A stretch of DNA of 32,590 nt from Thiogranum sp. (GTDB lineage: Bacteria > Pseudomonadota > Gammaproteobacteria > DSM-19610). Positions 6,927 through 32,590 of this stretch are shown piece by piece. The position numbers were made by a program, and so were the translations under genes. The stretch covers positions 1-32,590 of the forward strand of contig JASBST010000009.1 of NCBI GenBank assembly GCA_030148775.1, read 5' to 3'. The notes beneath the pieces are model-generated. The model did not search any database and was not told the DNA's origin. It saw only the letters and a list, made by a program, of their open reading frames with translations. Positions within the stretch are counted from its first letter, which is position 1; each line of letters starts with the position of its first letter.

Positions 6927-6985
6927 GATGTATCTCTTTATATTGCGTTTGTCTGTTATGCTAGTTGTCAGTCCGTAGCTTTCCA

Positions 6986-9034: not shown

Positions 9035-9159
9035 AGCCGCCCTCCTTGTCATTGTGTCGTGGCGTGTTAGAGCTACCCTAGCAACGGATTATGACCTTCG
9101 TATGAAAACAACAGCGCCCGGCTGACGCGTATATTGGGCGGCGAATGACACAGGGGCAG

Positions 9160-11693: not shown

Positions 11694-11799
11694 GATTTTT
11701 TACCCGGTCCCTCAGTACGCACCTGTCGTGCGACGAGAGTATATCGGGCGAACAGCACACGACAAGGTGGAAACACCGAAAGTCACATAACGGTAACAT

Positions 11800-14505: not shown

Positions 14506-14653
14506 GGGAGCGTCCTCGATTGCTCTTAATTCCGGGTTCCTTCGCCGCAATTTGTTCCGGCATGTCGGCAATTTAAGAGCGAATCGTTACGAGAAAATGA
14601 CCCTGCTATGTATACACACCAAATACTTCTTTACGATGGCGTTCAGACGGCGC

Positions 14654-16025: not shown

Positions 16026-16209
16026 ACCTGTTAACAGTATGGCGCGGCTGTTGCGGCGCCCATCGCATGACGTATGGATGGAAAACCCCATCAGTGTTGC
16101 TACGCCGACAACTCGGCCCTGGGAATCGCAGTTCACGCTTTGGGCCAGGAACGAGCTCGCCACTAGGCAACGGACACAGCAAGGAAGAACAACATCGATA
16201 GGGAAAATC

Positions 16210-16593
16210 ATGTCAATCAACGAAGCGGAACTCGTGCTGGATAAGGCGCGCTTTGCGCGTATTGTCGGAGAAAGCCAGGCGCAAGACACCGCCACACAAC
16301 TGGCCGACGCATTTTCAACACAGGTCGCGCAGATTGTCGACGATATCAGCAATCTACTAGACGGTGAAGAATTCCCTGAACGGGCCGTTCGCGGCCTTCT
16401 ACACCGCCTGCGAGGTTCGGCCGAAATTCTCGGGGCCGGTCTACTTTCCGATTTGACACGCAGTCTGCTGGAACATGACCAGCGCACGTTCAACGCTGCC
16501 ATTAAAATGACCCTTCCCTCGCTCTTTGAAACCATCGATCAAACACTGGCGGAAATCCAAACCTTGGCCAGAGAGCTCAAACCGCGGCCATGA
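16210..16593 (+). CDS. HPt-domain phosphotransfer protein
   Basis: The protein has 127 residues with its start at the ATG at 16210, preceded by ATAGGG. The upstream in-frame extension to 16039 lies over the leader and does not look like protein. The single domain is HPt: the phospho-accepting His is H65 in LLHRLRGSAEILG, which has the HxxxG spacing, and the rest is helical. HPt proteins carry phosphoryl groups from the receiver of a hybrid kinase to a second receiver. Its stop codon overlaps the ATG of the response regulator by four bases (ATGA), so the two are translationally coupled and probably partners. No kinase is adjacent. The hybrid kinase at 23753-26368 is the nearest plausible donor. 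Confidence 0.85.
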   Translation: MSINEAELVLDKARFARIVGESQAQDTATQLADAFSTQVAQIVDDISNLLDGEEFPERAVRGLLHRLRGSAEILGAGLLSDLTRSLLEHDQRTFNAAIKMTLPSLFETIDQTLAEIQTLARELKPRP

Positions 16594-17222
16594 CGAATAC
16601 CGGCCAACCCTTGCCATTGCCGCGAATACTCCTAGTCGACGATGATCTTGTCCAATGTACGCTGATCCAATGCAGCCTGGACCCAGCCTCGTATTCGCTC
16701 ACCGTGGCCCACAATAAACAACAGGCGTTGGAACTGTGCGATGGCCGGTTTTTCGAGCTCGCGATTCTCGACTATGAGCTGCCGGATGGGAGTGGCGCGG
16801 AGCTCGCCAATACACTTCGAAAAATTTATAACATCCCGTTTGTCTTTCTCACTATGGTCGATGACCGCAAGCGGGCCCAGCGTCCCATCGAACTCGGGGC
16901 GCTCAGCTATCTGGTCAAACCGGTCTCACCGAGGCAACTCGTGATTATGGTTGGAAATGCATTTGCAGAAATCGAACACCGCCGCGACCTTCAAAAAGCC
17001 GTTGAAATCCATGGGGCGATTGGTCTGGCGCTGGGGATCATCATGAACAACGCCCAAGTATCCAAGAACGAGGCACTGATGCACTTGAGAGATTTCTGCC
17101 AACCACGTAATCTGTCCATGCGTGCTGTCGCTGACCAGATTGTAGCGGCCTATGATGATTACACCAAGACCAAACACCAAAAACCGTTTGATCTTGCCAA
17201 GGTATTGCGATCAGTTAATTAA
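16590..17222 (+). CDS. Response regulator with ANTAR RNA-binding output (AmiR/NasT-type)
   Basis: The protein has 210 residues. Residues about 11-125 are a receiver with acidic DDD at 17-19, phospho-acceptor D61 (AILDYELPDG), T88 (FLTM) and K110 (YLVKPVS), so all key residues are present. A short helix (HRRDLQKAVEIHGAIG) leads into an ANTAR domain at about 140-195 with the typical IGLALGIIMN opening, the middle pattern NEALMHLRDF, and MRAVADQIV. ANTAR proteins bind twin hexaloop RNA hairpins and prevent transcription termination, usually after phosphorylation-driven dimerisation. It overlaps the HPt gene by ATGA. Its RNA target is not evident; leaders of the surface-protein operons in this window are candidates. 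Confidence 0.92.
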   Translation: MTNTGQPLPLPRILLVDDDLVQCTLIQCSLDPASYSLTVAHNKQQALELCDGRFFELAILDYELPDGSGAELANTLRKIYNIPFVFLTMVDDRKRAQRPIELGALSYLVKPVSPRQLVIMVGNAFAEIEHRRDLQKAVEIHGAIGLALGIIMNNAQVSKNEALMHLRDFCQPRNLSMRAVADQIVAAYDDYTKTKHQKPFDLAKVLRSVN

Positions 17223-18241: not shown

Positions 18242-20494
18242 TCAAGGCGCAGTGCCGTTCATAATAGCGCGCTGCAACAGCAAGACATCCGCGGCATCAA
18301 GAACTCTGTCCCCATTCAGGTCTGCCAATGTCTGTTCGAGTGCGGTCGGCTGAATACTGCCGAGGACCAGTCGCGTAAGAACCACCAGATCACCGGCGTT
18401 GATATTGCCATCGGGCGTCCCTCGGGGCCCGAGATCGCCACGATTGGAGGCATTGGGGTCGATGCCATATACATTGACCTCATCGCCATCGGTTACCCCA
18501 TCGCCATCAGAATCCGGATTGGTCGGAACAGTACCGTAGGTATTAACCTCTTGCCCGTCGGACAAGCCATCATTATCCGTATCGGCTATTAACGGATCGG
18601 TGCCATACGTCGGCTCATCCACGTCATCAAGCCCATCATTGTCATCGTCGGTGTCGCAAGCATCACACTGGGCATCGCCATCGTTGTTTTTCTGTAATGG
18701 GTTGGAGACATTCGGGCAGTTATCTAATGCGTCAATAACTGTATCGCCATCGGTATCCACGTATCCCCAATTGATGGCAACCGTACCGGCGCCGGCATTT
18801 TTTCCATCAATAGCTATCGCATAAGTTGTGCCCGCATTTGCCGAAAATGTAATCTTACTCGTCGTCGCACCCGCAGCATCGTCATTCTCGGCGACATTTA
18901 CGAGTGACGTAATGGCGTTCCCTGTATACGCAGCTAGAAGTGTATCGAAGTCACTCCCCGATGTGTCCCAGCTGACAGACCCCGTTATGGGTGCCTGCCA
19001 TGTCCACCATACAGATTTACCACCAGGCAGATTGGCTATCTGGGGTTCGCCGGACTCTAAGGTAGCATTGTTATTGTTGGCGTAAGCAGTTCCTGACTGG
19101 CTGATCAAAGGAATAGCACTGGCTAATTGATCGTTTAGTGCGCCAACGGCACCCAACAAATCCAATCTGGGCGCGGTAATACCATTGCGGCTATCCGTGA
19201 TCGGTAGCCCCGTGCCTGTCAACCGGGATACAGTTTCGTCCAGTGTGTCTGCCGGATACGCGGCACGTAAGACGGCAACGGCGCCACTAACGTGCGGTGT
19301 CGCCTGAGAAGTTCCACCTAGATTTAAACCCGCTGCATTAATCATAGCGCCAGGCGCCAACATCGTCAGAAAATAGGCGCTGTTTGAAAAACAGGTAATC
19401 TGATCCGCCGCTGTTGTACTGTCCGTACATAACACCGTACGGTCAGGGTTTAACCACGACGGGCCGCCCACATTCGCGTCATACACCGCTCCAACCGATA
19501 TGACACCAGGCGTACACGCGGGAATCCCAATTGCGTCACTTTTTGCCTCGTTACCTGACGCTGCCACAGTTAGTATCCCGTTGGCACGCGCACTATCAAT
19601 ACTCGCCTTGAACGGGTTATTCTGCGATGGTGGCCCGACGCCCGAACACGGGTCTTGAAAAGCGCTACCACCCAAGCTCATATTGATAGCAACTATATTG
19701 TACGTATCTTTTAGCGCTATTGTATCGTCGATAGCTTGGTTTATATCAGAGGCGAACGCCCCACCTCCATCAAATACATCGAATGCGATTATTGAGCTTC
19801 CGGTCGCAATACCCGCCGCGATCCCAGCAACGTTGGTTCCATGCCCGTTATCATCGAGCTGATTGTCATCGGGTGCGGTGTCTTTCGCAAAGACGACGCG
19901 GCAACCAGCTGGCGTAGATGGCGCTGTGCACGACCCGAAAGCACTCCGGGTATAGTCCACCCCCGTATCCAATACGGCGACTGACACGCCTTGGCCAGTG
20001 ACACCCAGCGTCAGCGCTTTGTCTTGTTGGATCAAGGGCGCACTCTGGCTCAAATACATGCGGAGTTTTATGTTTTTGTGGATTGCGGAAACGCCGGGAA
20101 GTCGCTGTAACGCACGCACCAGCGCCGCCGATCGTGTCTTCACATGCAGAAGCGGCAAATTGTGATAATCACGTGTGATGGTTGAACTGTCGAATCGTAT
20201 CGAACTAAGTACATTTTTCTTTATCGTTCGAAGTTCATTTGCAATGTCAGCGCGTAAAGCCGCGTTGTTAAAGGCTAGGTTCCGTCTGTTTCGGAGCGTT
20301 GAATATTTTTTCTTTAAATCGGCAACATCAAATTCCACAAGAAAATTATATTCACCGGAAGCTGTTAACAGTTCGGATAGGGAGCTAGCGCCATTTAGGG
20401 AGCCCGTATCGGAAGGTTGTGCAAACGACGCCTCACTAAATACACCGCCCAGCAACATCAATGTCAGGGCGATGATTCCAACCGGTGTTTCCAT
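18242..20494 (-). CDS. Subtilisin-family (S8) serine protease with TSP3 repeats and C-terminal dockerin
   Basis: The protein has 750 residues, with ATG at 20494 preceded by AAAGG. The signal peptide ends near SFA/QP (25). After a propeptide, the S8 domain has D176 (VAVLDTGVD), H218 (DNGHGTNVAG), N315 (AASGNE) and S396 (GGTSQATPHVSG), all intact. One pre-peptidase-like beta-sandwich (about 465-580) follows. Next come calcium-binding thrombospondin type 3 repeats at about 585-690 (DTDGD, DDDNDGLDD, DTDNDGLSDGQE, DSDGDGVTDGDE), and then a dockerin-like pair of F-hand loops (DGNINAGD at about 694, DLNGDRVLDAAD at about 725). It is clearly paralogous to the IPTL-CTERM protease at 11800-14505 through propeptide and catalytic region, but the tail is different and there is no IPTL signal. 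A cohesin partner is not visible in the window. Confidence 0.93.
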   Translation of the reverse strand: METPVGIIALTLMLLGGVFSEASFAQPSDTGSLNGASSLSELLTASGEYNFLVEFDVADLKKKYSTLRNRRNLAFNNAALRADIANELRTIKKNVLSSIRFDSSTITRDYHNLPLLHVKTRSAALVRALQRLPGVSAIHKNIKLRMYLSQSAPLIQQDKALTLGVTGQGVSVAVLDTGVDYTRSAFGSCTAPSTPAGCRVVFAKDTAPDDNQLDDNGHGTNVAGIAAGIATGSSIIAFDVFDGGGAFASDINQAIDDTIALKDTYNIVAINMSLGGSAFQDPCSGVGPPSQNNPFKASIDSARANGILTVAASGNEAKSDAIGIPACTPGVISVGAVYDANVGGPSWLNPDRTVLCTDSTTAADQITCFSNSAYFLTMLAPGAMINAAGLNLGGTSQATPHVSGAVAVLRAAYPADTLDETVSRLTGTGLPITDSRNGITAPRLDLLGAVGALNDQLASAIPLISQSGTAYANNNNATLESGEPQIANLPGGKSVWWTWQAPITGSVSWDTSGSDFDTLLAAYTGNAITSLVNVAENDDAAGATTSKITFSANAGTTYAIAIDGKNAGAGTVAINWGYVDTDGDTVIDALDNCPNVSNPLQKNNDGDAQCDACDTDDDNDGLDDVDEPTYGTDPLIADTDNDGLSDGQEVNTYGTVPTNPDSDGDGVTDGDEVNVYGIDPNASNRGDLGPRGTPDGNINAGDLVVLTRLVLGSIQPTALEQTLADLNGDRVLDAADVLLLQRAIMNGTAP

Positions 20495-20624: not shown

Positions 20625-23600
20625 CTACTCGCTACAGCCTAGAGTCGCCAAATATGGGCGGCCTACGCCTGTAATATATTGTTTTTTATTGTCAATATCG
20701 GACACGGTCGACACCAACGAAGCCTGTGGGCCAAATACGATCGGCGCCGAGGTGATCACGGTAAACGAACTGCTCCTGGCGTCTCTGGCCTTGCATCGGT
20801 TTCGTAACAGATGTTTAGCCGCCTTCTTCGGTCGCTTTGCTGCTCTTTGCAACTGGATAACAGGGGCATCGATTACCACCGTTCCATCAATGCCGTACTC
20901 AGAAGAGGCTTCAATCAACGAGTTTGCGTCCTGTACCAAAAGTCCTGCGTGGATGCGTATATCCCCACCGGTTCCACTGACTGCGTTAGCTTGGATAGAA
21001 CTATCGGTTAACAGCACCAATTTCGGGTCAATAAAAATATTTCCAGCGCTACCATTACTGCCGAGCACGCTAGTTGACAGTCTGGCACGATTTAGCTCCA
21101 ATAGTTTATTGGTGAGCAACGTTATATTACCGCCACCGCCAGCTAATGCCTCGGTTGATATTTCGCTATCGTGTATGCGAATGGTACCGGAATTTGTCAG
21201 TGTTATTGTTCCTGCATCGCCGTCACCGATATTAGAGGCGCGTATAGTCGTACCATTCTCTATACGCAAGTCACCTCCCTCAATACGAATCGCACCGCCG
21301 GCACTTGAACCCTCTGACTGAGACGTAATCGTTGCTGCCCACAAATCCACCTTTCGAGCACCGATCACAATAGCACCACCCGATCCGGAACCGGCAGTAT
21401 CCGCAAAAATACGACTGCGTGAAACGTGGATATTTTCGATATTTTTCAGAGCAATCGATCCGCCGTCTCCAGAACCATTTGACGAAGAGGATATCGTTGC
21501 TCCGTCCAAAACGTTTACTTTCTTTCCGGTTACCTCGATATTGCCCGCATTACCTTCATCCGTTGTTATAGACTTAATAGCCGATCGATCGGCAATTGTT
21601 GTGTTTCCTCCGGATATCGAAATTTCACCTGCATTTCCCACACCATGTGTGCTCGCGGACAACACAAAGCCATCGGTTGCGTCGATTTGCCGCGCGCTGA
21701 CGGTAATCGACCCGGCATCGCCGCTTTCTCCAACCGTTTCCGTAGTTACCGTGGAAGGCTGCGCCCAACGATCACTTTTTGGCGAATCGGAGCCGTTTAG
21801 TGTAATACGATCCGCTAGAAGCGAAATATTTCCACCAGCCCCTGCTTTATTCACCATCGTCCTTATCTTAGCGCCATTTCCGATGTTTATCTCGTTAGCC
21901 TCGATCTTGATAGAGCCGGCGTGGCCGGTGGTATGTCGTGCGTCGGCATTGATGCCCGCTTGATATTGAACCTCGAGTGCACCTTCATTTGAGAGTCGAG
22001 GCAGCTCACTTCTGGATATGAGACTGGCCTCAAATCCGACCGTCGGCGCCACATCCAACGCCTTGCGGCCATGGGAACGTATCGTGATAGAGTCGGCCGT
22101 AATCTGGATATCGCCGCCGTCCGATTCAGCCTTTGGTCTAAAGGACCGATTGAAGTTTTCATCAACATCGGGCTGGACTTTGTCAGTGCGGGAGTTAATC
22201 TGAGCGCGGCCAAGAATACTGACATCGCCAGCCGCCAGAGTTATATTGCCCGCATCGCCTTCCGAAAAGCTGGAAGTAACGATACCTGAGGGCGGAGCCA
22301 CGTTCTCGCGGGCGATCTGGTTTCTTAAATCACTAGTATCCGCCCGCCAGTTTCTTGCCCATTGGTCAAATGCCGTATCGAATGCGATTTGTTGGTCTGG
22401 GCTCAGGTTGCTGAAATAGCCTGGATCGCTTATATCCTTTATGATCATGTCAAGTAAGGCCGTTTGCCCGTTTTCTTCCAGGTACCAGCCAAATGAGTTT
22501 GGTTCCCAGAAAAGGCTATCCGATAGGATGACAGTATCCGCTGACACCGTGATATTGCCGCTGTTTCCTTTAGTCGGACTGTATGGAATAACAAAGATAG
22601 AACCACCGCCCGACAAATCATTGGGAGTGCCCGCCAAGCCTGTCGTTGATTCGATGCGACCACCTTCCAACAACTCGACGCGACTGGCCCGGATGTCGAT
22701 ATCACCGGCGTCTCCGTCACCTAACGTTTTACTTTCAATCACTGATCCGTTTTCAATGCGAACTATCGAATCGGCATTCAATCGAATATCACCAGCCCGA
22801 GCATCTGCAGTGGTACTGGTAGACAACTCCGACCGATGGTTCATTGCCAAACTCTTGGCAGTAACATTGATTGCTCCGCCTTCACCATTCCCGTCGCTCC
22901 CTGCCACTATCCGGCTACTGTCAAGCACTATCCGCCCACCGCGAATGTAAATTGAACCAGCCGTGCCACCGGAGGTAGATATCTGCGAATCGTCCGTTAT
23001 TGTGATGCCCGATAAGGCTGGAGCGCCGCCAGTGCCAGGCTCGTTTTGGCCGATTGTGACAGTGCCCTTTCCGGAAACGGCACTGATTCGCACATCACCA
23101 CCTTGTGTATTAACGGTCGCACCCTTAACGTTGATGTCGCCTGCGGTTATAGACATCGAGTAACCGGCGCTCTGTAATTGAGCGCCCTCTAGGGTAATAT
23201 CCGAAATATTCGAGTCAAGAAAGCCATAGGCCACCGGGTTTCCCACCGTCAGTACGGACTGTTGCGGATTCGTGGCATCAAATCGCCCCGCCTTTCCCAA
23301 CAAAAGGTAATGCGCCGTGGATACATTAAACGCTCCATCTATATTCAAAGTGGCGTTTGGGCCGAGCACAACGCCGGCAGGATTAATAAGATAGAGGTTT
23401 GCCTTAGGAATGGCGACATTAAGCCTGCCATCGATGGAGGACAAGTTACCACCCGTGACCCGCGAAATCACATTACTGATGTCTGGAGTACCGTTGAAGG
23501 TTGCGGATTCCATGTTATTCAAGGTGAACTGATAAAAACTATGGAACAAATTACTGCCAACCTGGGTTCCGCGATCGGCACTGATCTGAAAATCCGGACC

Positions 23601-23747
23601 GACCAATGCCCCGGGGGCTCCCAAGGTACCGTCGAAGGTGACTTCGGCGCCTAATTCACCGCCGCGGCCAAGGATGATCGACAGCGTCGCAGCGAGGATT
23701 GCCTGGGAGGTAATCCGTCGGAAGCGGGTAATACGTTTGTCTTTCAT
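20625..23747 (-). CDS. TpsA two-partner-secretion exoprotein, FHA-like beta-helix
   Basis: The protein has 1040 residues, with ATG at 23747 and GAGGGATAA upstream. The N-terminus has a signal peptide (to about 34) and a TPS domain at about 35-190, including LFHSFYQFTL, FNGTPDISNVISRVTGG and INPAGVVLGPNA (120-131). The hallmark NPNG motif reads NPAG here. The rest is a long series of beta-helix repeats with GDAGxI/GNAGxI, DxxxI and S-I-S/N patterns, as in filamentous haemagglutinin. The last 100 residues hold a Lys/Arg-rich segment with one Cys and GIDGTVVID, similar to FHA-like proteins of cyanobacteria. TpsA proteins cross the outer membrane through a TpsB partner, here the 29434-31119 gene of the same operon. 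The start is 5 bases after the stop of the sensor kinase. The likely role is surface adhesin or matrix protein. Confidence 0.93.
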   Translation of the reverse strand: MKDKRITRFRRITSQAILAATLSIILGRGGELGAEVTFDGTLGAPGALVGPDFQISADRGTQVGSNLFHSFYQFTLNNMESATFNGTPDISNVISRVTGGNLSSIDGRLNVAIPKANLYLINPAGVVLGPNATLNIDGAFNVSTAHYLLLGKAGRFDATNPQQSVLTVGNPVAYGFLDSNISDITLEGAQLQSAGYSMSITAGDINVKGATVNTQGGDVRISAVSGKGTVTIGQNEPGTGGAPALSGITITDDSQISTSGGTAGSIYIRGGRIVLDSSRIVAGSDGNGEGGAINVTAKSLAMNHRSELSTSTTADARAGDIRLNADSIVRIENGSVIESKTLGDGDAGDIDIRASRVELLEGGRIESTTGLAGTPNDLSGGGSIFVIPYSPTKGNSGNITVSADTVILSDSLFWEPNSFGWYLEENGQTALLDMIIKDISDPGYFSNLSPDQQIAFDTAFDQWARNWRADTSDLRNQIARENVAPPSGIVTSSFSEGDAGNITLAAGDVSILGRAQINSRTDKVQPDVDENFNRSFRPKAESDGGDIQITADSITIRSHGRKALDVAPTVGFEASLISRSELPRLSNEGALEVQYQAGINADARHTTGHAGSIKIEANEINIGNGAKIRTMVNKAGAGGNISLLADRITLNGSDSPKSDRWAQPSTVTTETVGESGDAGSITVSARQIDATDGFVLSASTHGVGNAGEISISGGNTTIADRSAIKSITTDEGNAGNIEVTGKKVNVLDGATISSSSNGSGDGGSIALKNIENIHVSRSRIFADTAGSGSGGAIVIGARKVDLWAATITSQSEGSSAGGAIRIEGGDLRIENGTTIRASNIGDGDAGTITLTNSGTIRIHDSEISTEALAGGGGNITLLTNKLLELNRARLSTSVLGSNGSAGNIFIDPKLVLLTDSSIQANAVSGTGGDIRIHAGLLVQDANSLIEASSEYGIDGTVVIDAPVIQLQRAAKRPKKAAKHLLRNRCKARDARSSSFTVITSAPIVFGPQASLVSTVSDIDNKKQYITGVGRPYLATLGCSE

Positions 23748-23752
23748 AGCAT

Positions 23753-26368
23753 TTATCCCTCGTTATTCTTTCTTGTCTCGTGTCTAGTTGACGCGCGGCT
23801 TCCAGGCGTTACGGTATTTGGCTCCAGCAGGCGAGCCATCAGCGCGATCAATTCATCCGGTGCAGTGGTCTTTGGCAGTTGCCGGGTGATCGCCGTCGGT
23901 TCCACGGGGGCTTCTGTCATCGAGGTCGATGTGACCAGCAAGATCGGCAGGCGGGGGGCTACGTCATCCAGTTGCCTGATAGCTTGGGCTAACGCGGTTC
24001 CCATTATGTCTGGCAGATTCTGATCCAGGATGAGGATGTCAAACGGTGTTTTTTGTACTTGCTCAATGGCCTCCGCACCGCAAACGACCGCGGTGACGTT
24101 ATAACCGGCCCTGATCAGTATTTCCGACCAGGCCAGGCGTACGATTTCGTTGTCGTCGACCAGTAGCACCCGGCGCTGAGGCCGATCACCCTGAGCTTCT
24201 ATAGCAACGGCGCCCGTTTGGGGCTGATACGTATACCCGTCGTCCAACGACGCAAGATACAACAACCGTCTCAGCGTCACGCCGCTGACCGTCCTGGGCA
24301 CCTCGGCGCCCTGCCCGAAGCACCAGACAGAGTCTCGTACGGTTTCGCGCAAGGCGCGATCGCAGATAACCCGGATAGTGGGTACGGACGACGCCGCGGA
24401 GTCGGCGTCGACAATCATCACCGCTGGTTGTACTGGCGTCGGTGAGTTCAAACTAACGCCTAGCGCGTCGAGTGTGCGCAGCACGCGGGGCTCTCCCGTG
24501 GTGGCAACCACGGGCGGTAACGACGGCGCGTATTCTCCACGCGATGTGTCATCCTGCTTCAACGGCAGGGTCATGTGAATGGCCGTCCCTTGCCCTTCCC
24601 GAGAATCTAGTCTTAGCGTGCCGTTCAAGCTATCGACCAGCTTTCGGACAATGGCCATGCCGAGCCCGACACCGGGCATATCATTGTTAAAGCGCTGATA
24701 CTTGTCGAACAAATGGGAAATCTTGTCCTGCGGTATTCCACCGCCTTCGTCCTCAATTTCAAACCGAACCGTCTGGGGATTAGCCCCTGGACTCACACGC
24801 AGAAAAATACGTCCTTGTTTAGAATATTTCAGGGCATTGGACAGCACGTTTTGCAACAGGCGCATGATGGCTGTTTCGGCGCCTTGTCGCATCGGAGCGA
24901 CGGCCGCTGAAACTGCCAGTGTCAACCTCAACCCTTTTGCCGCGGCCAGGGGTAAGGCGCTGGTATACATCTCAGTGACAAGGGCATATAAATCGAAGGG
25001 TGTTTCAGCCGGCCGATAGGCCTTATCCTCTATTTTCGAGAGTTCCAGAAGTTCGTCGACTTCGTGTCCGAGCACGCTCGCAGCCCGACCCAACCAGGCA
25101 AGGTAACGGGCGCGGGTATGGTCATCTTTGGCCTTTTTGACTAAATCGATAGTCGATAACAATGCCCCCACTGGGGTGCGCAGGTCGTGACTGACTGCGC
25201 TGACAAAATCCTTCTGCGCCTCGACGCGGGTGCGCGCAATCAGGATCGCCTTTTGCGCTTGATAGGTACGGATCAGTAGACGGGTTCCTGTCAGCAATAA
25301 AGCGCTGGTAATCGCGGCGGCGCTTGGAAGATAGGCGCCACTCATCAGAACACCCAGTGTCAATCCGTAGACACCGATTACCAACACGGCAAGCACAACA
25401 CTCGCGCGCAATACGCTTGTCGTCAACGGCCAGATCAACAGCGTCGAGGCTAGCAGCGCCAGCATTGGCCACCGCGTGGGTTCCCTGATCAACGACCGGT
25501 TTAACAAAGCGCTAACGAAATTGGCCTGCACGAGGACACCGGGTTGGCGAAACGAGGACGCGGTTGGCGACAAGGGTAGCGGCAGCGCCAACCGGTCGAT
25601 GTCAGATAACACGCTGCCAATTATTACAATTTTATCTTTCAGGCTTGCTTGTATCCGCCGCCGTTGCGGCGAGTCTTCCACTAGGGTTGCAGCCGAAATA
25701 ACGGGAATGGCCTGAACAATACGGTAGTTCAGCAACCCAGGGGCGTAGTGGCCACCGACGGCGCGGACGAGTTGTCCGGCAAAAGTCGGGACGGCGCTGC
25801 CGCCGGTGCCCAGGAACTCGGTGTGGCGCCGGATGACACGATCCGCATCCAATCTTAAAACATCGCTGCCGATACCGTAACGCGGGTCTACCAGAGATAG
25901 AAAAGGGCCATAGAGGGGCTTGGGTCTCAGGTTCTCGTCGATGGAATGGGCCACCGTGACCGCAATGTCCGCCTTGCGTAAAGCCTGTAGGCCGCGCATC
26001 AGCGCGTGATCAGTATTGGGAAAACGTTGTTCGTAACCGCGCGCCGGCAATACGATATCAAATCCGACAGCCCGCGGCTTCGCCGTCGCCAGCCAATCGA
26101 ATAGCCGACCATAATATGGATGCCAGAGCGCCAGCGGGGTATGCGAGGCTTTGAGGGTGGCCTCATCGATCGCAATGACCACAACCCGGGAATCGGCCAC
26201 TTCCGGACGTACCGCCCGCAATACCCGGAATTGCGAATCCAGCAACCAGCTATCGGCGACGGCGAAGCCGCCGTAGTGGTTCACCAACACTACTGCGCTC
26301 AGGATCAGAATCGCCAGCCACCCCTCGGACCCACGACGCAGTCGGTATACAAAAGGTCGGAACCTCAT
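23753..26368 (-). CDS. CHASE2-domain hybrid histidine kinase
   Basis: The protein has 871 residues, with ATG at 26368 overlapping the CHAT stop by ATGA. Domains: an N-terminal membrane helix (about 17-35), a periplasmic CHASE2 sensor (about 36-295), three membrane helices (about 300-365), HisKA with H394 (SAVSHDLRTP), HATPase (N511 in NVLSNALKYS, EDEGGGIP at 539-546, GVGLGMAI at 566-573), and a C-terminal receiver (about 733-850) with D738/D739 and phospho-acceptor D782 (LILDQNLPD). Between kinase and receiver, about 625-715, lies a segment with VMIVDADS and other receiver-like pieces but no obvious phospho-Asp, possibly a degenerate receiver. No DNA-binding output is present, so the terminal receiver probably acts by phosphotransfer. 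The HPt/ANTAR pair at 16210-17222 is a candidate downstream path. Confidence 0.94.
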   Translation of the reverse strand: MRFRPFVYRLRRGSEGWLAILILSAVVLVNHYGGFAVADSWLLDSQFRVLRAVRPEVADSRVVVIAIDEATLKASHTPLALWHPYYGRLFDWLATAKPRAVGFDIVLPARGYEQRFPNTDHALMRGLQALRKADIAVTVAHSIDENLRPKPLYGPFLSLVDPRYGIGSDVLRLDADRVIRRHTEFLGTGGSAVPTFAGQLVRAVGGHYAPGLLNYRIVQAIPVISAATLVEDSPQRRRIQASLKDKIVIIGSVLSDIDRLALPLPLSPTASSFRQPGVLVQANFVSALLNRSLIREPTRWPMLALLASTLLIWPLTTSVLRASVVLAVLVIGVYGLTLGVLMSGAYLPSAAAITSALLLTGTRLLIRTYQAQKAILIARTRVEAQKDFVSAVSHDLRTPVGALLSTIDLVKKAKDDHTRARYLAWLGRAASVLGHEVDELLELSKIEDKAYRPAETPFDLYALVTEMYTSALPLAAAKGLRLTLAVSAAVAPMRQGAETAIMRLLQNVLSNALKYSKQGRIFLRVSPGANPQTVRFEIEDEGGGIPQDKISHLFDKYQRFNNDMPGVGLGMAIVRKLVDSLNGTLRLDSREGQGTAIHMTLPLKQDDTSRGEYAPSLPPVVATTGEPRVLRTLDALGVSLNSPTPVQPAVMIVDADSAASSVPTIRVICDRALRETVRDSVWCFGQGAEVPRTVSGVTLRRLLYLASLDDGYTYQPQTGAVAIEAQGDRPQRRVLLVDDNEIVRLAWSEILIRAGYNVTAVVCGAEAIEQVQKTPFDILILDQNLPDIMGTALAQAIRQLDDVAPRLPILLVTSTSMTEAPVEPTAITRQLPKTTAPDELIALMARLLEPNTVTPGSRASTRHETRKNNEG

Positions 26369-28566
26369 TGCCAGTTACCTACGAGTACGAAAGCGGACCA
26401 GTAACGGGGGTTTCGGTATTGCGGGAGGGACAACATCTGCTGCTGCGCGAGCTGGAGTGCGCGCGCTCGGCTATTTTCCGGCAGTGTCAGTTGTCGGTAA
26501 AACGCGGCCATCAAAGCCTCGGTCGCCGGATCGCTAACTTGCCACAGGCTAGCCAGTACCGTCTGCGCCCCGGACTTCACCGCCAATCCCCCCAGCCCCA
26601 AAGCGGCACGGGCGTCACCGGCGGCCGTCGAACAGGCACTCAAAGTCAACAACTCAACCGGAGTATCGAGAAAACGTCCGGCGGTCAGCACCGATTGAAT
26701 ATCATTGATCCCCAGTTTCCCGTCATACGATAAAATGTAGGAGGTCCGCGCATCGGGCTCGAACCGTCCGTGCGAGGCCAAATGCAGAATGGGGTACGTG
26801 GTTTTAGCGAGTTCGTCTTCCAGTGCGGGCAGCGTGAAAGCGTGATTGAGTAAAAGCACCGAGGGATAATGATCGGCCAATGCAGTCACTTCCTGTTTAA
26901 CGAACGGCAGCTCGGTATAGCCCTGCACACTGTCGGAAACACCCGCAATCAACATCCGCAGCTGGCGCCCCCGCATAGTCTGTGGATCGGTCAGCGCCAG
27001 CCCGGGCGTGGTGGCCACCGCATAGCGTTCGATCAGGAAGTGTTCGCCGTCGAACAGGGCGGCCAATGGCACCATCTGCAGCGTCGCATTTGGCACGAAG
27101 ACCAGTGTTTCCGGTTGCCTCTCGTCAAGTAGGGGTTGAAGGGGCTGAATCAGCCAGCGATAAATCTCTTGGGCACTGGCTTGGTATACCGTCTGAGCAC
27201 CCAGCTGTAGATTCGTGCGCAGACTATAGAGAGCGTGATCCAGCGCCAGTTTCGTGACCGGGACGCGGACGTGGGTGATGAAATCCGAACCGCTAACAAG
27301 CAGTTCCAGTCGGTCGTCGAGGGCGATAGGATATATCACCAGGGTCGCGCGATCGATCTGCTCAATACCTTTGGTGCGATTCTGAAGATCGGCCACACAA
27401 TCGTCTTTAAAATAACGATGCAAAGCCTCCGCCCGCGTCAGCTCGACGATGCGGCGGACTTCCTCCAGTCGAATGGCCGTTTTCTCACTACTTTGTTCGT
27501 CTACGTTACTTGACAATATGATTGCCGCTGCTTCTTCCAACAAGGTCTGGATGGGTTGTCCGCGCCAGCCGTCGCTGAATAGGCTCAGTCTGTCCGAGCT
27601 CGTCTGCAGCAGCGCAACCGCTTCACGGTAGGCCGCCAGGGCCGCGGGTTTTTCGTGGAGCTGTTTATGCAGCCGGGCCAGCTGCCAGTGCAACCGCACG
27701 AGTAGCGGCGTTGTATTCGCTCGTTGGGCAGAGAACAACGCTTTGCGCGACAAAGTGAGCGCTTCTTTAAAACGGCCTGTGTCGCTATACAAGGTGCTGA
27801 GCGCCATCAAGGCCCTGGCCCGGGCATTGTCATCCGCATCGCTGGCGGCGATCTGTTCGGCTTCGTGCAACAGCCGGTAACGCTGTTCCTGTACCGAGGC
27901 TTCCGTATGGGGCAACTCGCTGAGTCGCTGGGCCGCACTGAGCAGTAGAGGCAATTTGCGTGCATCAAGCGGCATCGCGCTCAATCCCGGCAGCGTCCGC
28001 TGCAATCCGGCCAGGGCGTCGGCGTTACGCGCAAGAGCAATCAGCGCCTGTACGCGGTTCAATTCGATTTTAATTCGCAGGTGCGTGGGCGAATGCGGTA
28101 GCAGCTGTAACGCCTGTTGGTAGTCACGTAGGGCGTATGCCGCACGCGCTTGCGCCATATAGACGTTACCGCGGTTGTTTAGCGCCACGGCCCTTGCCGG
28201 AACGCCGCTCGGCAATTGTCGGATCAGGGCATTCAGCGTCGCTTCTGCCCGTTCATAATGGCCGGCTGCAATCTTAATGGCCGCGGTCAGCAAGCCAACC
28301 TCGACCGACCGGTGACCGCCGCTGCGGATATCCAGGATTTCGGCCTGAATACTGGCTTTACGGGCGTTGGACAAGTCGCCGGCCTGCAACCAGTGGTCGG
28401 CCTGCTGGAGCCTAAGGGCGAGTTGACGCACGTCGTCCGTCGGCTGCGGCGCAGTGCTTGCCGGGGCGGGTAAACCGGCAGCGGCTTGTTGAGCACACAG
28501 GCCTTGCAGGGGCAGGGTGACCCCGTAAAACATGCCCATCACCATGAAAACAGCCGATGGTTTCAT
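26365..28566 (-). CDS. Exported TPR-CHAT caspase-like protease
   Basis: The protein has 733 residues. The ATG at 28566 (MKPSAVFMVMGMF) overlaps the stop of the FecR-like gene by ATGA, and the upstream in-frame extension lies over that gene. A signal peptide ends near LCA/QQ (about 25). Residues about 45-330 hold TPR-like helical repeats (ALNNRGNVYMAQ, ALMALSTLYSDTGRFKEALTL). Residues about 400-733 are a CHAT domain with the catalytic His H599 (LHLASHGRF) and Cys C645 (LSACSTAAG), plus the typical GLGGLAVKSGAQTVLASLW and final ALQLAQQQML near the end. Both catalytic residues are intact. CHAT proteins are caspase/separase-fold cysteine proteases; most described ones act in the cytoplasm, while this one is predicted to be exported. 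Its place in a two-partner secretion operon suggests that TpsA or a surface protein is the substrate. Confidence 0.94.
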   Translation of the reverse strand: MKPSAVFMVMGMFYGVTLPLQGLCAQQAAAGLPAPASTAPQPTDDVRQLALRLQQADHWLQAGDLSNARKASIQAEILDIRSGGHRSVEVGLLTAAIKIAAGHYERAEATLNALIRQLPSGVPARAVALNNRGNVYMAQARAAYALRDYQQALQLLPHSPTHLRIKIELNRVQALIALARNADALAGLQRTLPGLSAMPLDARKLPLLLSAAQRLSELPHTEASVQEQRYRLLHEAEQIAASDADDNARARALMALSTLYSDTGRFKEALTLSRKALFSAQRANTTPLLVRLHWQLARLHKQLHEKPAALAAYREAVALLQTSSDRLSLFSDGWRGQPIQTLLEEAAAIILSSNVDEQSSEKTAIRLEEVRRIVELTRAEALHRYFKDDCVADLQNRTKGIEQIDRATLVIYPIALDDRLELLVSGSDFITHVRVPVTKLALDHALYSLRTNLQLGAQTVYQASAQEIYRWLIQPLQPLLDERQPETLVFVPNATLQMVPLAALFDGEHFLIERYAVATTPGLALTDPQTMRGRQLRMLIAGVSDSVQGYTELPFVKQEVTALADHYPSVLLLNHAFTLPALEDELAKTTYPILHLASHGRFEPDARTSYILSYDGKLGINDIQSVLTAGRFLDTPVELLTLSACSTAAGDARAALGLGGLAVKSGAQTVLASLWQVSDPATEALMAAFYRQLTLPENSRARALQLAQQQMLSLPQYRNPRYWSAFVLVGNWQ

Positions 28567-29414
28567 GGTTCCAGGGTTCGATAGGCCCGAAGGCGTGCTT
28601 GATTGGGGGAAGACTTGGCCAGTTCTCGCCAGATATGCATGGCGTCGCTGCGGAAACCGGCCTGTTCCAGCAGCAAGGCGCAGGCGACTTGCTTGGCAGT
28701 GGGCTGAGAGCAATCGCCGAGCTGCCTGCGCCACTCCAATTGGGCGGCATCGGCCACTATAAAATTGCCCTGTGCGCGCGTTTCCCGTCCATCCATCCGA
28801 CGCCCGGTCAGGATCCACGTATAGCGCTTACGCGCCTTCAGAAGCAACGTGGGCGGTACCTGCATGCCAGGTTCGGCGCGATCCTGGGTATAGAGGGGTC
28901 TGGCCTCCGCATCGAATAGCGTGAAGGAAACCGGCCCGATCAGCTCTGAGGTGACCCAGCGAAATTCCGGCGACGATTCGATCAGCGTGCCATTGGGACT
29001 CAATTGATGCAAGGCGGTTTGCTGGGAGTCGCCGCGCGTGCGCGTTGAGGCTTGTTCGATCAAGCCTTCCTGCAGTTGCAAGTTACGACCGGGAAACAGG
29101 TCGCGCTGTTTGGGCGGATGACCGCTCACCAGTGTAAGCCCGTGACCGGACAGCCGTACTTTGGCCGGCCCGGTGACTACGAACTCATACAGCGGCCGGG
29201 TCAGCACCAGGGTAAGCTGACCGCCCTCGGCAACCTCGATGGAATCACCGTCATAGCACACCGAGAATGGCGAGAGCGGACGTTGATCGGCGGTGGCTTG
29301 GCCCTTAAGATCTGTCACCAGAGCGCGCCCGATACCCGCTGCCTGTATCATCGTGGTGACCGCCAGTAAGGTGATAACGACGACCCCCGCCAGTACAGTG
29401 GTTTCTAATTTCAT
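28563..29414 (-). CDS. FecR-like exported/membrane-anchored protein
   Basis: The protein has 283 residues. The ATG at 29414 is chosen for the strong AAGGAGG upstream. An N-terminal helix (about 7-26, GVVVITLLAVTTMIQAAG) is a signal peptide or anchor. Residues about 40-110 look like the FecR beta-domain (VCYDGDSIEVAEGGQLTLVL, FVVTGPAKVRL). Residues about 120-210 form a second beta-rich region (FRWVTSELIGPVSFTLFD). The C-terminus is a short helical piece with paired Cys (DCSQPTAKQVACALLLEQAG) and a TPR-like end. FecR domains usually sense periplasmic signals for ECF sigma factors, but no sigma gene is present. FecR-like proteins do occur beside CHAT and CHASE2 genes. It lies 19 bases after tpsB and overlaps the CHAT gene. 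It may be a periplasmic signal receiver or scaffold for the CHAT protein. Confidence 0.82.
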   Translation of the reverse strand: MKLETTVLAGVVVITLLAVTTMIQAAGIGRALVTDLKGQATADQRPLSPFSVCYDGDSIEVAEGGQLTLVLTRPLYEFVVTGPAKVRLSGHGLTLVSGHPPKQRDLFPGRNLQLQEGLIEQASTRTRGDSQQTALHQLSPNGTLIESSPEFRWVTSELIGPVSFTLFDAEARPLYTQDRAEPGMQVPPTLLLKARKRYTWILTGRRMDGRETRAQGNFIVADAAQLEWRRQLGDCSQPTAKQVACALLLEQAGFRSDAMHIWRELAKSSPNQARLRAYRTLEP

Positions 29415-29433
29415 GGTTGCTTCCCTCCTTTGA

Positions 29434-31119
29434 CTAATACCGCAACCCAACCTCTAGGCTGACGCCACGATCAACCAAGCCTTTGTCTGACACATCTATA
29501 TGCCGGAGTACCTGCGCCAGGTACACAGTGGCGTGAAAATGCTCGCCATACCGGTACAGCGCACCGATTCCGACACTGCCAATACTGCTCGGCGAGCTCG
29601 GCTGTCCGGTAGTGTCCACCCACCCTACATCGGTGAAGACGGCACCCTGGAGTTGGTGCCTGGGATAGCGATCGAACCCCAGACGATGACGATATTCCAA
29701 GGAGCCGACCGCAGCACGGTCACCCACCAGAATGCCTTCGCGGTAACCACGTACGCTATAAAAACCACCAATGATAGTTTTTTCGCTCGACAGCAAATGA
29801 TCGTTGCTCCAGGTGAAGTCCAGCCGACTGACCAGCTGCCCACGCGCACCCAGGGCGCGCACCCATTGCGCCTGGCTGCGTAGCACCAGATACTGGCTGT
29901 CGGGCAGGCTTTCGTGCCGAGTGGCGCCAAACCAGTCAGTGCCCACTATGGCGGTCAGCTGGGTGAACAACGCTTGTCGATTATCCCGGTATCGCCAACG
30001 CTGGAAGACGTCCAGGTGTGTGACTTTGCTCTTGCCGTCGACCACACCCGGTGTAAAGGAGAAAGGCTGACTCAATAACGAGGTGCTGGTTTTTTTGTGT
30101 TCAAGGCGCGTACCCACGACAAACTCACCATCGATGTCGTGATACAACGGCTGCGTGACTTCGACACCGATGGTATTGCTCCGATTCTGAATATCGATTG
30201 CCTGGAACGGAGCCGAAATAACCTGCGATTCTCCGTTGAGGTAATAGCCACGCACAGTAGTGTCGTAGCGATTAACTGGCAACGCATAGCTGGCCCAATA
30301 CTGATTCGTGCCATCCGTCACGCTGTAGGAGGCAGACGCCGTGTCACCGAAACCCGTCAGGTTCCGATAGACAACACTGAGGGTTGCCTGCTCGGAACCG
30401 ACACTGGGCGAGCGGTGGTTATCCCCCACCATGCTAATCTCGTAGGGTTTTGCTTCGGTAATCGCGACATCCAGATCGGCATGCCCCGGCTGTGCGGTAG
30501 GGCGCATTTGCGCCTTTATAGTTTCAATTAAGGGGCTCTGCTGAAAAAGCAGCAATCCCTTTTGCAGCGTGTTGGTGTTTAACGGATTGGTTGTAAACTG
30601 CTCGAGTCGCCCCCGTACATAGCGCTCATTAAGCCGCGTCAGCCCCTGTATATGGAGGGTATCCAAGCGCCCCTCGACAATATCATAGCGGATGGTGCCA
30701 TCTTCAACCGACTGGTCGGGGAGCAACGTACCGGAGTTTACATAACCCAAACGAATGTAGGCGAGTGTCAGGCGTTGGCGTATTGCCTGTAACTCTTCAA
30801 TGGAGAGAAAACGATGGGAAAACGGTGCCGTAATCGCACTGAGTTGCTCATTCGTGAAGACGGTGTTACCGCTGAAGCGGAAACTGTTAACCCATATGCG
30901 CGGGCTCTTGGAAATTGGTGCGGAAGGGGCCGGCTCCGGCACTGTAGGTAGTTCAAAATCCAGTCTCTCAGGTGTCTGATAAGTTGGGGTTTCCGGCGCG
31001 AAATAGGTTTCCGGCAGGCGCTGCGACTCGTCCCGAGGCGAATTCGGCGTTGCCGATTGGGCTGGACCCGCAAGGATGACCCCAATCATAGCCATAACGA
31101 CCTGATTACCAGATTTCAT
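29434..31119 (-). CDS. TpsB outer-membrane transporter (ShlB/FhaC/HecB family)
   Basis: The protein has 561 residues from the ATG at 31119 (MKSGNQVVMAM). A GTG at 31134 is an alternative start; neither has a strong Shine-Dalgarno. A signal peptide ends near QSA/TP (23). A Pro-rich linker (about 25-72) precedes one or two POTRA domains (about 73-225; VNSFRFSGNTVF, GYVNSGTLLPDQ, IVEGRLDTLHIQG). A 16-strand-type barrel follows to the C-terminus with the family motif VRGYRE at 456-461 and a terminal aromatic residue (GLRY). TpsB proteins recognise the TPS domain of a TpsA in the periplasm and pass it across the outer membrane; the cognate TpsA is the last gene of the operon (20625-23747). This gene is first in the operon, and the promoter should lie in the 31120-31395 region. 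Confidence 0.94.
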   Translation of the reverse strand: MKSGNQVVMAMIGVILAGPAQSATPNSPRDESQRLPETYFAPETPTYQTPERLDFELPTVPEPAPSAPISKSPRIWVNSFRFSGNTVFTNEQLSAITAPFSHRFLSIEELQAIRQRLTLAYIRLGYVNSGTLLPDQSVEDGTIRYDIVEGRLDTLHIQGLTRLNERYVRGRLEQFTTNPLNTNTLQKGLLLFQQSPLIETIKAQMRPTAQPGHADLDVAITEAKPYEISMVGDNHRSPSVGSEQATLSVVYRNLTGFGDTASASYSVTDGTNQYWASYALPVNRYDTTVRGYYLNGESQVISAPFQAIDIQNRSNTIGVEVTQPLYHDIDGEFVVGTRLEHKKTSTSLLSQPFSFTPGVVDGKSKVTHLDVFQRWRYRDNRQALFTQLTAIVGTDWFGATRHESLPDSQYLVLRSQAQWVRALGARGQLVSRLDFTWSNDHLLSSEKTIIGGFYSVRGYREGILVGDRAAVGSLEYRHRLGFDRYPRHQLQGAVFTDVGWVDTTGQPSSPSSIGSVGIGALYRYGEHFHATVYLAQVLRHIDVSDKGLVDRGVSLEVGLRY

Positions 31120-31395: not shown

Positions 31396-31614
31396 ATGAA
31401 AGTGTCCCTGAAACGTCTGGGTGAGACGTTAGCCGCGGCAGTTCGACTCGCTCTGAAGCTAATAGCTGGGGCAATAGGACTGCTCGCCCGCAGCGCCCGA
31501 ACGACTCCAGCAGACGACGAGCTCAACAACTCGTTTCGTGGTGGCGTTATGAACCACCGCACTGGAAAGTTTGACGATGGAAGCGATCCCGCAGGTTGGT
31601 ACGAACGCGATTAG
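31396..31614 (+). CDS. Small basic protein beside TraG, function unknown
   Basis: A 72-codon ORF starts with ATG at 31396, with AGGA about 8 bases upstream. The N-terminal half is a basic amphipathic or hydrophobic helix (LALKLIAGAIGLLA). The C-terminal half is polar with SFRGGVMNHRTGKFDDG and ends PAGWYERD, a pattern that looks conserved rather than random and that I vaguely associate with small ORFs near ICE genes. Its stop overlaps the TraG stop, with the two genes converging. The good ribosome site and well-structured C-terminus argue for a real gene. The function is unknown. Confidence 0.6.
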   Translation: MKVSLKRLGETLAAAVRLALKLIAGAIGLLARSARTTPADDELNNSFRGGVMNHRTGKFDDGSDPAGWYERD

Positions 31615-32590
31615 CGACGAGCTCCTTTCGACAGCAGTGTTTTGCCGATTGAGCCTCCTTGGCGACCCGCTTCCTGGGCAGGGTTTCGAAGTGGGCTGGT
31701 AGCCGCCTCAATCGATCGCCCTACATGCAAGCCTGCCCATGCCATCATCCCGCTCCAGACCAATGGTAGACCTAGATAGAGGCTGGTCGTGATCATATTG
31801 AGCAGCATGCGCTTGCTGTCGTGTTCACCGGGATTCGCAAAGATCTGCAGAAAGACATTCACATCCGGATACATGGACCGGATTAGATTCTGATCCACCC
31901 ACATTGCCAAATACCAGAGCACACTCCAGAACTTAACCGTAAAGATGGCCATCGCACCTATGACCATAATGGATATGGAATAGCGGGACAGCAAGACGAC
32001 CATGGGAAGCAAGGCGTATACGCCGAGCAGGAGCAGGGCCTGTACCATCGGGAGGGCTTGAAGGACAGCGGTCATGGTGACAGAAAACAGGGCTGACGTG
32101 ACCAGCACCCCACCCGATGCCAAACCGCCCTTAGCAGCATTCTCCACCGTGCTCAGCAGGCTCGTGCTTCCGGAGTTATTCGCAACCAGATCATTGTTTG
32201 ACCACGTGGGTGGTGAATTTGTCAGAACGGCTTTGGCGACCGCATCGTTTTGCTGTTCGCTGGCCAGCGCAGGTGCGATGGCCACTACGAGACCCGAGAG
32301 ACCAGCCGAGGTGGCGTCAGCCTCGTTAATCATCTTTTCACGCAGGCCAATCGAGGCGTCCTCCCACCACTGCTTGCAGTAAGGCCTTCCCCAGGTGGGT
32401 GGTGCGGCAGGATCATATTCGGTATCGCGGGCAGCATTGTAGGCCCAGCCGCTGACCTGCGTGGTGGCGCGCAGCGTGCCGTAGTAACCGGGCGTATCTC
32501 GATAGACATGCGATCCCATCCAGTCGGGATCGTCGGAGCCATAGGTTGTCAGCAGGGCATTGACCGCGGCGGTGGTGGGCCGTTCTGCCT
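31611..32590 (-). CDS. TraG-like conjugal transfer protein of ICE type, N-terminus beyond window
   Basis: The frame is open from the right edge to TAA at 31611-31613, so only the last 326 codons are present. An internal ATG at 32519 is not a start, since coding continues upstream (TTYGSDDPDWMGS). The segment YRDTPGYYGTLRATTQVSGWAYNAARDTEYD, read in parts, and KQWWEDASIGLR strongly recall the TraG N-terminal-domain mating-pair protein of PFGI-1/GI-type ICEs. Hydrophobic segments near the C-terminal half (ALLLLGVYALLPMVVLL, SISIMVIGAMAIFTVKFW) fit its inner-membrane location. TraG-like proteins stabilise mating pairs and belong to the type IV secretion module. This is the only direct conjugation gene in view. 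It suggests that the rest of the T4SS module lies to the right. Confidence 0.88.
   Translation of the reverse strand, partial: AERPTTAAVNALLTTYGSDDPDWMGSHVYRDTPGYYGTLRATTQVSGWAYNAARDTEYDPAAPPTWGRPYCKQWWEDASIGLREKMINEADATSAGLSGLVVAIAPALASEQQNDAVAKAVLTNSPPTWSNNDLVANNSGSTSLLSTVENAAKGGLASGGVLVTSALFSVTMTAVLQALPMVQALLLLGVYALLPMVVLLSRYSISIMVIGAMAIFTVKFWSVLWYLAMWVDQNLIRSMYPDVNVFLQIFANPGEHDSKRMLLNMITTSLYLGLPLVWSGMMAWAGLHVGRSIEAATSPLRNPAQEAGRQGGSIGKTLLSKGARR

Follow-up and report, generated by a model that had tools for sequence, protein, structure and literature searches.

The genome of Thiogranum sp. contains, within a stretch of 32,590 nucleotides (GenBank assembly GCA_030148775.1, contig JASBST010000009.1; hereafter the window), five adjoining minus-strand genes that encode a two-partner secretion (TPS) transporter, TpsB, a DUF928-like protein, a TPR-CHAT cysteine protease, a CHASE2 receptor, and a TPS exoprotein, TpsA, read in this order from 31119 to 20625. 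In other bacteria, CHAT proteins of the same type are mostly encoded beside TPS genes, the TpsA proteins linked to them mostly share a C-terminal tail, and some of these CHATs are fused to TpsA with the tail at the junction. We read the set as a TPS system equipped with its own caspase-like protease for processing and with a sensor that spans the envelope, in which CHAT would cut TpsA at or near its tail; we regard this reading as plausible, with a likelihood a little short of even. The features of the cassette are as follows.

29434-31119, minus strand: TpsB, a ShlB/FhaC-type outer-membrane barrel with POTRA, the exoprotein transporter (Pfam POTRA_2, 1e-15, and ShlB, 2e-32; start ATG read)
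28563-29414, minus strand: DUF928-like protein, FN3/immunoglobulin (Ig)-like with a helical hairpin in its model (PF06051, E 2.5e-4, under the curated cut-off)
26365-28566, minus strand: TPR-CHAT cysteine protease of 733 amino acids with His599 and Cys645 (PF12770, 2.2e-58)
23753-26368, minus strand: CHASE2 receptor, a hybrid histidine kinase (CHASE2, 9.2e-29; HisKA, HATPase_c, and receiver)
20625-23747, minus strand: TpsA, an exoprotein with a TPS domain (PF05860, 4.4e-34; TIGR01901, 1.3e-19)
20628-20795, minus strand: C-terminal tail of TpsA, from the conserved Cys to the end, by alignment a degenerate copy of the CHAT-associated tail

Genes were assigned from open reading frames, start codons, and Pfam and NCBIfam scans. 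An earlier description of the window made from the sequence alone (the preliminary description) had listed five same-strand genes, and their coordinates were correct, as were the ATGA overlaps between the DUF928-like and CHAT genes and between the CHAT and CHASE2 genes, the 5-base gap between the CHASE2 and TpsA genes, and the 19-base gap between TpsB and the DUF928-like gene, which starts at the ATG at 29414 with AAAGGAGG ahead of it. The TPS domain of the exoprotein and the POTRA and ShlB domains of a transporter encoded nearby on the same strand assign the pair to type Vb (two-partner) secretion. Promoter and terminator signals in the window were at shuffled background (12 vs 9.4 and 16 vs 13.7), and co-transcription of the cassette therefore rests on gene spacing, from which we judge the predicted five-gene operon to be real. 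Neither an Rfam scan nor a tRNA scan of the window gave a match.

To describe the neighbourhood of related CHAT genes, 20 regions were fetched from other Pseudomonadota genomes (11 at window-type CHATs and 9 at other CHATs), and GTDB contigs were scanned with an alignment of ten window-type CHATs, which gave 80 named loci, the best 80 of at least 537. The titles of those loci cover Gamma-, Beta-, and Alphaproteobacteria, Magnetococcales, Nitrospirota, Desulfobacterota groups, Scalindua, Acidobacteria, Myxococcota, Rokubacteria, Binatia, Spartobacteria, and Nostocaceae. The CHAT clade thus occurs under more than ten group names, and most of its well-flanked loci link it to secretion across the outer membrane. 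Neighbours were typed by hidden Markov models (HMMs) grown from the window and from Pfam-checked seeds. Among 90 window-type loci (window included, two duplicates of one contig removed, many contigs short), TpsB was found in 63, DUF928 in 52, TpsA in 50, and CHASE2 in 37, and nine had no partner. The control consisted of 28 other-CHAT loci, namely, 9 of the 20 fetched regions and 19 of 20 from a second set after removal of one duplicate; these contained no TpsB, TpsA, or DUF928 and four CHASE2 genes. When the comparison was limited to the 36 window-type loci flanked by 4.5 kb or more on each side (the window is not among them) and partners were counted anywhere in the fetched locus, TpsA or TpsB was present in 31/36 loci vs 0/28 other-CHAT loci; the Fisher p of 2e-13 is a guide only, because the loci share ancestry and in some cases a contig, and because the controls were taken without a flank requirement. 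TPS genes were also absent from the 13 of the 28 control loci that have 3 kb on both sides. The co-occurrence for which the preliminary description had proposed a neighbourhood search thus exists in other genomes, and its absence is excluded.

Nine of the 36 well-flanked loci carry all four partners, 11 carry TpsB, TpsA, and DUF928, three carry TpsB, TpsA, and CHASE2, and three carry TpsB and TpsA; the rest have TpsA only (three), TpsB only (two), DUF928 and CHASE2 (one), CHASE2 only (one), or no partner (three). The TPS genes look like the constant partner of CHAT because three TpsB, CHAT, and TpsA loci lack a detected DUF928 or CHASE2 gene. Gene order and strand vary between loci, which would suit a loose genomic island whose surface and signalling genes have no joint function, as would the exosortase, subtilases, and RHS protein encoded elsewhere in the window. 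However, such an island is already contradicted by the difference between window-type and control loci and by the DUF928 linkage and the gene fusions described below; it would hold only if these fusions and linkages had arisen through faulty assembly, and one of the genomes concerned, that of Desulfonema magnum, is complete. We consider it highly improbable.

The preliminary description had also mentioned similar gene sets in cyanobacteria, and these are present on annotated plasmids. On a plasmid of Nostoc UHCC 0302, genes for CHASE2, DUF928, an S-layer family protein, ShlB, CHAT, and filamentous hemagglutinin are consecutive, and on pANACY.04 of Anabaena cylindrica a filamentous hemagglutinin-CHAT pair adjoins a DUF928-CHASE2 pair. 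These are two of four plasmid records opened out of 33 with a match. The cyanobacterial plasmids that carry these related sets are typed as conjugative or mobilizable.

The second gene of the cassette had been described as FecR-like, and this identity was rejected: Pfam FecR (PF04773) matched nothing in the window at a cut-off as loose as E ≤ 1, and the single PF04773 match of the Thiogranum sp. genome is on another contig. Instead, the C-terminal part of the protein matches DUF928 (PF06051) with an E value of 2.5e-4 and 21.3 bits, below the curated cut-off of 26, and we call the product DUF928-like on this weak match. All 48 other DUF928 rows of the alignment, taken from 54 listed frames, match PF06051 at E ≤ 0.01, which is circular because the HMM used to choose them had itself been built from Pfam DUF928 matches. 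An AlphaFold model (m69c5ca37b7c5; predicted local distance difference test [pLDDT] 68) shows an FN3/Ig-like sandwich and a helical hairpin, with a beta-rich N-terminus of low confidence. A fold search with this model returned many FN3/Ig-like domains (best E 2.4e-3) and no confident relative, and a profile search of solved structures with the protein returned none at E ≤ 1. In 200 Pseudomonadota genomes, DUF928 had four matches, each no more than 3 kb away from a window-type CHAT; the copy in the window does not reach the threshold of that count. DUF928 is thus the sharpest link to window-type CHATs, and if the reading given above is true, the family would gain a gene context from the cassette.

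The CHASE2 protein of the window combines CHASE2, HisKA, HATPase_c, and receiver domains and qualifies as a sensor kinase; the receiver is an addition to the preliminary description. A periplasm-facing CHASE2 domain, as proposed there, agrees with the hydrophobic stretches at residues 17-35 and 302-339 that flank it, as judged from hydropathy only. Among 36 cassette CHASE2 proteins, some of whose frames end at contig edges, 29 have a nucleotide cyclase as output domain, two have a histidine kinase (the window and L042), one has a Ser/Thr kinase (L040), and four show no output domain. On predicted domain content, the window protein is therefore a rare kinase variant, and a nucleotide cyclase is the usual output. 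Because the CHASE2 domain occurs in 132 of the 200 Pseudomonadota genomes, its presence alone tells little. CHASE2 ligands are called unknown in PMC5192318 and PMC10581220 (these and the other papers with PMC numbers are cited from excerpts), and CHASE2 domains, too, would gain a gene context if our reading is true. Two genes that may belong to the signalling output lie beyond TpsA on the strand opposite to the cassette.

16210-16593, plus strand: Hpt protein (PF01627, 4.5e-6 for the frame 16039-16593; start at 16210 picked by eye)
16590-17222, plus strand: receiver-ANTAR response regulator (PF00072, 3.8e-19; PF03861, 3e-9), ATGA overlap with the Hpt gene

Judged from proximity only, a four-step phosphorelay from the hybrid CHASE2 kinase through the Hpt protein to the ANTAR protein as terminal regulator is possible. 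The link to DUF928 and CHASE2 also bears on a different role for the protease, in which CHAT would generate a signal by cutting DUF928 or the periplasmic part of CHASE2 when TpsA or TpsB is engaged, and TpsA would not be a substrate. The confinement of DUF928 to the vicinity of window-type CHATs in the 200-genome sample fits such a role, as does the CHASE2 gene that directly adjoins CHAT on the same strand in 20/90 loci. In addition, CHASE2 cyclases of Sinorhizobium meliloti are reported to act with, and to respond via, the outer-membrane barrel NsrA (PMC13001267). However, TpsB, CHAT, and TpsA loci exist in which DUF928 and CHASE2 were not detected, and it is TpsA that is fused to CHAT, the conserved tail marking where the two meet. 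We consider this role rather unlikely.

His599 and Cys645 of CHAT, which the preliminary description had called intact, are at the positions given there and are invariant in 92/92 alignment rows. The His-Cys dyad is also present in the 26 other CHATs of the CHAT-domain tree, and therefore it speaks for predicted CHAT activity and not for a TpsA-linked role. The tree separated 90 window-type CHATs from these 26 (two more were left out because of short domain ends) in a clean split with a support of 0.98, which indicates that the window-type CHATs are a clade at the sequence level; three pairs among them are more than 90% identical. Ten of the 200 Pseudomonadota genomes, Thiogranum sp. included, hold a window-like CHAT (E ≤ 1e-77) at 12 places in total, and the next match is at 2e-33. 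The AlphaFold model of the window CHAT (m139d8c5dc5f4; pLDDT 89.4, predicted template modelling score 0.87) is closest among solved folds to Csx29, the TPR-CHAT of Craspase (8eey_B, E 6.8e-15), and then to separase. The next solved match of the model is DdvA, a transmembrane anti-sigma factor (8rot and 8rw5, E about 1e-12), which by this comparison is a probable membrane-linked relative of the modelled fold. A solved-structure search with the CHAT profile gave TPR proteins only among the 60 matches listed. The signal peptide that had been assigned to CHAT is weakly supported: a heuristic passes 74/90 window-type CHATs, yet it passes 22/28 others too and thus does not separate the two groups, and the window CHAT has no 19-residue stretch above a mean hydropathy of 1.6.

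The C-termini of 53 linked TpsA frames over 600 amino acids (51 after removal of copies) were aligned. They share an invariant Cys, followed by S-[ST]-[FL]-V-x-x-G-R-[GDE]-G-[LV]-P-x-x-P-[GD] (in short, Cys…SSFVVxGR[GD]GLP), and this short conserved motif is followed by a variable tail. The Cys is present in 51/51, Ser in 44/51, Phe or Leu in 50/51, Arg in 39/51, and the two Pro in 41/51 and 44/51, and 44/51 have a second Cys in the last 15 residues. No Pfam or NCBIfam model covers the tail, either in the window TpsA or in four proteins run against each library. With leave-one-out scoring, in which rows at least 70% identical were kept out of training, 47/51 linked TpsAs reached the threshold of 15 bits vs 0/28 examined TpsAs from genomes without a window-type CHAT. 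The controls were 40 hand-picked stretches of 112 TPS matches outside linked loci, of which the longest open frame was scored; 21/40 have a frame matching the TpsA HMM, and the remainder are more distant TPS kinds. Six of the 40 reached 15 bits, all among the 12 from CHAT-bearing genomes, and none of the 28 elsewhere did (0/22 without six cut by contig ends). Three of these six come from genome G157, where the one CHAT match seen was a fragment of 68 residues at the end of a contig, with none at E ≤ 1e-15; if G157 is counted as lacking CHAT, the split becomes 3/9 vs 3/31. A further 30 stretches were fetched from nine TPS-positive genomes, and 20/31 window-type TPS frames (>150 bits) in them have a tail of at least 15 bits. 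The Thiogranum sp. genome encodes a second, long TPS protein (3418 amino acids; G000:C108:18389-19078), which lacks the tail.

Gene fusion is classic evidence of joint action. In the D. magnum genome (NZ_CP061800.1, complete by title), two frames of 1479 and 2684 amino acids consist of a TPS domain, solenoid-like sequence, the tail, and TPR-CHAT, and Pfam confirmed TPS and CHAT in both (L214 and L215). Among 147 genomes of the D. magnum class, 23 have CHAT matches at E ≤ 1e-40; ten of these matches are in long frames (>1000 amino acids), and all ten frames, from five genomes, were fetched. The HMMs found TPS at the N-terminus together with TPR-CHAT at the C-terminus in 7/10 (L214, L215, L246, L247, L249, L251, and L252), while L248, L250, and L253 have CHAT and the tail without a TPS match in the same frame, L250 beginning at a contig edge. 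The tail lies at the junction between solenoid and TPR in 9/10 frames with at least 16.9 bits. Read by eye, seven of these nine have Arg at the Arg position, one has Lys, and one has Pro, and the next residue is Asp or Glu, so that Arg or Lys precedes Asp or Glu in 8/9. All ten stretches are free of N, and the dyad is intact in 10/10. Because the tail holds a fixed place in the fusions, it suggests a predicted joint to be cut, and the fusions and the shared tail together name a likely substrate and cut region. An apparent TpsB-CHAT fusion in another locus (L082) was rejected, since an ambiguous codon lies between the barrel end and a Met followed by a signal-peptide-like stretch, most likely marking two genes.

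D. magnum encodes 11 TPS proteins, all of them tail-bearing, vs six window-type CHATs (E ≤ 1e-86), a surplus that fits a common enzyme reading the tail as a tag. The same surplus would suit a periplasmic quality-control protease that clears stalled or unsecreted TpsA, the tail marking a chain that fails to exit; the invariant dyad would serve this function, and the TPR domain would be fit for holding a chain. However, fusing a degradation enzyme to the end of TpsA would be wasteful, and the fusions would fit processing in cis better, which leaves this explanation with a small probability. It may also be imagined that CHAT resembles a sortase, or PorU of the type IX secretion system, and cuts the tail to join TpsA to a surface molecule, given several tailed proteins for fewer CHATs and a short conserved motif followed by a variable tail. 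By contrast, no result points to ligation chemistry or an acceptor, and the CHAT model is closest to the proteases Csx29 and separase; we consider a ligase improbable.

We therefore return to processing of TpsA by CHAT. TPS exoproteins cross the barrel N-terminus first, as established for FhaB, and the C-terminus leaves last. In the scheme that we propose, TpsB would export TpsA N-terminus first, and the conserved tail, with its Cys and usually Arg, would exit the periplasm last or remain there. The exported TPR-CHAT would hold its protease domain near TpsB and TpsA through the TPR superhelix and would cut TpsA in cis or in trans, at the tail or close to it, and the cut would mature TpsA or free it from the outer membrane. 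DUF928 and the CHASE2 receptor would report or gate the state of TpsA across the inner membrane, with an output that would usually be a cyclic nucleotide and in the window would be the histidine kinase with its receiver, possibly relayed via the Hpt and ANTAR proteins. In the fusions, a folded C-terminal TPR-CHAT should not pass the barrel and would stay periplasmic until cut. N-terminus-first export and this retention are the reasons why we favour a cut of TpsA by CHAT at or near the tail; the cellular locations, the cut site, and the direction of signalling are part of the proposal. The preliminary description had proposed a sensing-and-processing surface system in which CHAT matures, releases, or destroys TpsA. 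Apart from the FecR identity, this proposal gains support from the co-occurrence, the DUF928 linkage, the tail, and the fusions; among its alternatives, a cut at the C-terminal end of TpsA or close to it is the likeliest. More tentatively, and as a possibility that we hold with less assurance than the cut itself, the loci may define a subtype of two-partner secretion, spread over many bacterial groups, in which a C-terminal Cys/Arg processing tag is read by a dedicated periplasmic TPR-CHAT of caspase fold, either in trans or, in some bacteria, in cis as the last exoprotein domain; there the folded protease would plug the pore until it cuts itself off. Via DUF928, this processing would be coupled to CHASE2 receptors that can replace one another (cyclase, Ser/Thr kinase, or phosphorelay).

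Several points weigh against the inferred cleavage of TpsA by CHAT. In two of the 36 well-flanked loci, L109 and L097, CHAT is accompanied by DUF928, CHASE2, or both, but the fetched region contains no TPS gene, and three others lack any partner; TPS proteins are encoded elsewhere in the genome in 9/10 genomes checked (three empty loci, two without TPS genes, and five cut on one side). On plasmid pREC3 of Acaryochloris marina (L243), a DUF928-CHAT pair adjoins RTX-type genes, and a Pseudanabaena plasmid carries a CHAT without an annotated TPS gene in 12 kb. In the tail data, the fused frame L252 has no tail, 11/31 window-type TPS frames in the nine genomes are below 15 bits (three of them cut short), and the tails of the Thiotrichaceae genome G200 are mostly weak. 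Arg is absent from 12/51 linked tails, among them that of the window TpsA, which scores 10.8 bits leave-one-out and has Ser at the Arg position. This copy keeps SSSF and the second Cys near the end and has lost Arg and GLP, and because it lacks Arg, the proposed cut residue fits it poorly. Finally, the tail is confounded with TpsA subfamily, and it could be a structural cap or anchor and not a substrate. At the pREC3 locus, DUF928 and a very long CHAT protein are encoded beside a calcium-binding protein and two proteins annotated as toxin-activating lysine-acyltransferases, genes that we ourselves read as RTX-type; the CHAT/DUF928 pair may serve other exporters too.

The cassette shares with known type Vb systems such as FhaB/FhaC and HMW1 a TPS exoprotein and a POTRA-ShlB transporter encoded together, and it differs from them in the added TPR-CHAT, DUF928, and CHASE2 receptor and in the Cys/Arg C-terminal tail that most TpsAs of the set have. 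FhaB is processed by SphB1, DegP, and CtpA, and HMW1 has a C-terminal disulfide anchor. Control of LapA by LapG and LapD is alike in outline, with a periplasmic cysteine protease, a surface adhesin, and an inner-membrane nucleotide-signalling protein, but it differs in the protease fold, in the type I exporter, and in the retention module at the adhesin N-terminus. Craspase, the type III-E CRISPR enzyme, has the same combination of TPR and CHAT with a His-Cys dyad in Csx29, the best solved-structure match, whereas the window CHAT is encoded with TPS genes; the 19 window proteins scanned with Pfam gave no match to Cas families (the gRAMP/Cas7-11 context of Csx29), and the window CHAT did not match the Csx29 NCBIfam model at E ≤ 0.01. 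To our knowledge, the characterised CHAT proteases (Craspase, HetF, and separase-like) all act inside cells. HetF of Anabaena is likewise a CHAT protease, but it acts in heterocyst development and at the divisome; it is reported to cleave PatU3 (PMC12288457).

Parts of the set have been described in other combinations. The Burkholderia BiofilmReg operon encodes a response regulator, a LysM-FecR protein, and a CHASE2 kinase, and insertion in the response-regulator gene abolished biofilm; it is similar in pairing an exported accessory protein with a CHASE2 kinase, but the accessory is LysM-FecR, and the excerpt names no CHAT or TPS gene (PMC5192318). Unlike this accessory, the second gene of the window had no match to LysM or FecR. 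In Nostoc, CHASE2 and DUF928 are clustered close together near WD40 genes, in an excerpt that names no CHAT or TPS gene (PMC5587647). A Trichodesmium metacaspase likewise joins a caspase fold to a CHASE2 domain, but as a Peptidase C14 in one polypeptide, and the excerpt mentions no TPS gene (PMC2853523). MtxA is encoded ahead of a CHASE2 cyclase (PMC4439547), and TPR-CHAT genes lie near receiver-domain genes in Thioploca and Maribeggiatoa (PMC5108060). In the open-access literature (subscription journals were not covered), we found no paper that pairs CHAT with two-partner secretion, CHASE2, filamentous hemagglutinin, ShlB, or the haemagglutination activity domain; such gene sets are already in databases as annotated genes, and it is the pairing of CHAT with TPS for which we found no published description there.

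Further genes lie in the remainder of the window. A subtilase gene (18242-20494, minus strand) begins 130 bases past TpsA on the same strand, and its product has TSP3 repeats and a dockerin-like C-terminus; it could be a second protease acting on TpsA. At 7766-14571 (minus strand), an exosortase, nearest to NCBIfam XrtM but under the cut-off, is encoded between two IPTL-CTERM proteins, one with leucine-rich repeat matches and the other a subtilase, and these genes form a putative small sorting island. A frame of at least 2330 amino acids at 3-6992 (minus strand), open at the window end, has transglutaminase-like and RHS repeat regions. Upstream of the cassette, a gene resembling the TraG N-terminal region (31611-32588, minus strand) is cut by the window end, possibly marking the edge of a conjugative element that carries the cassette as cargo.

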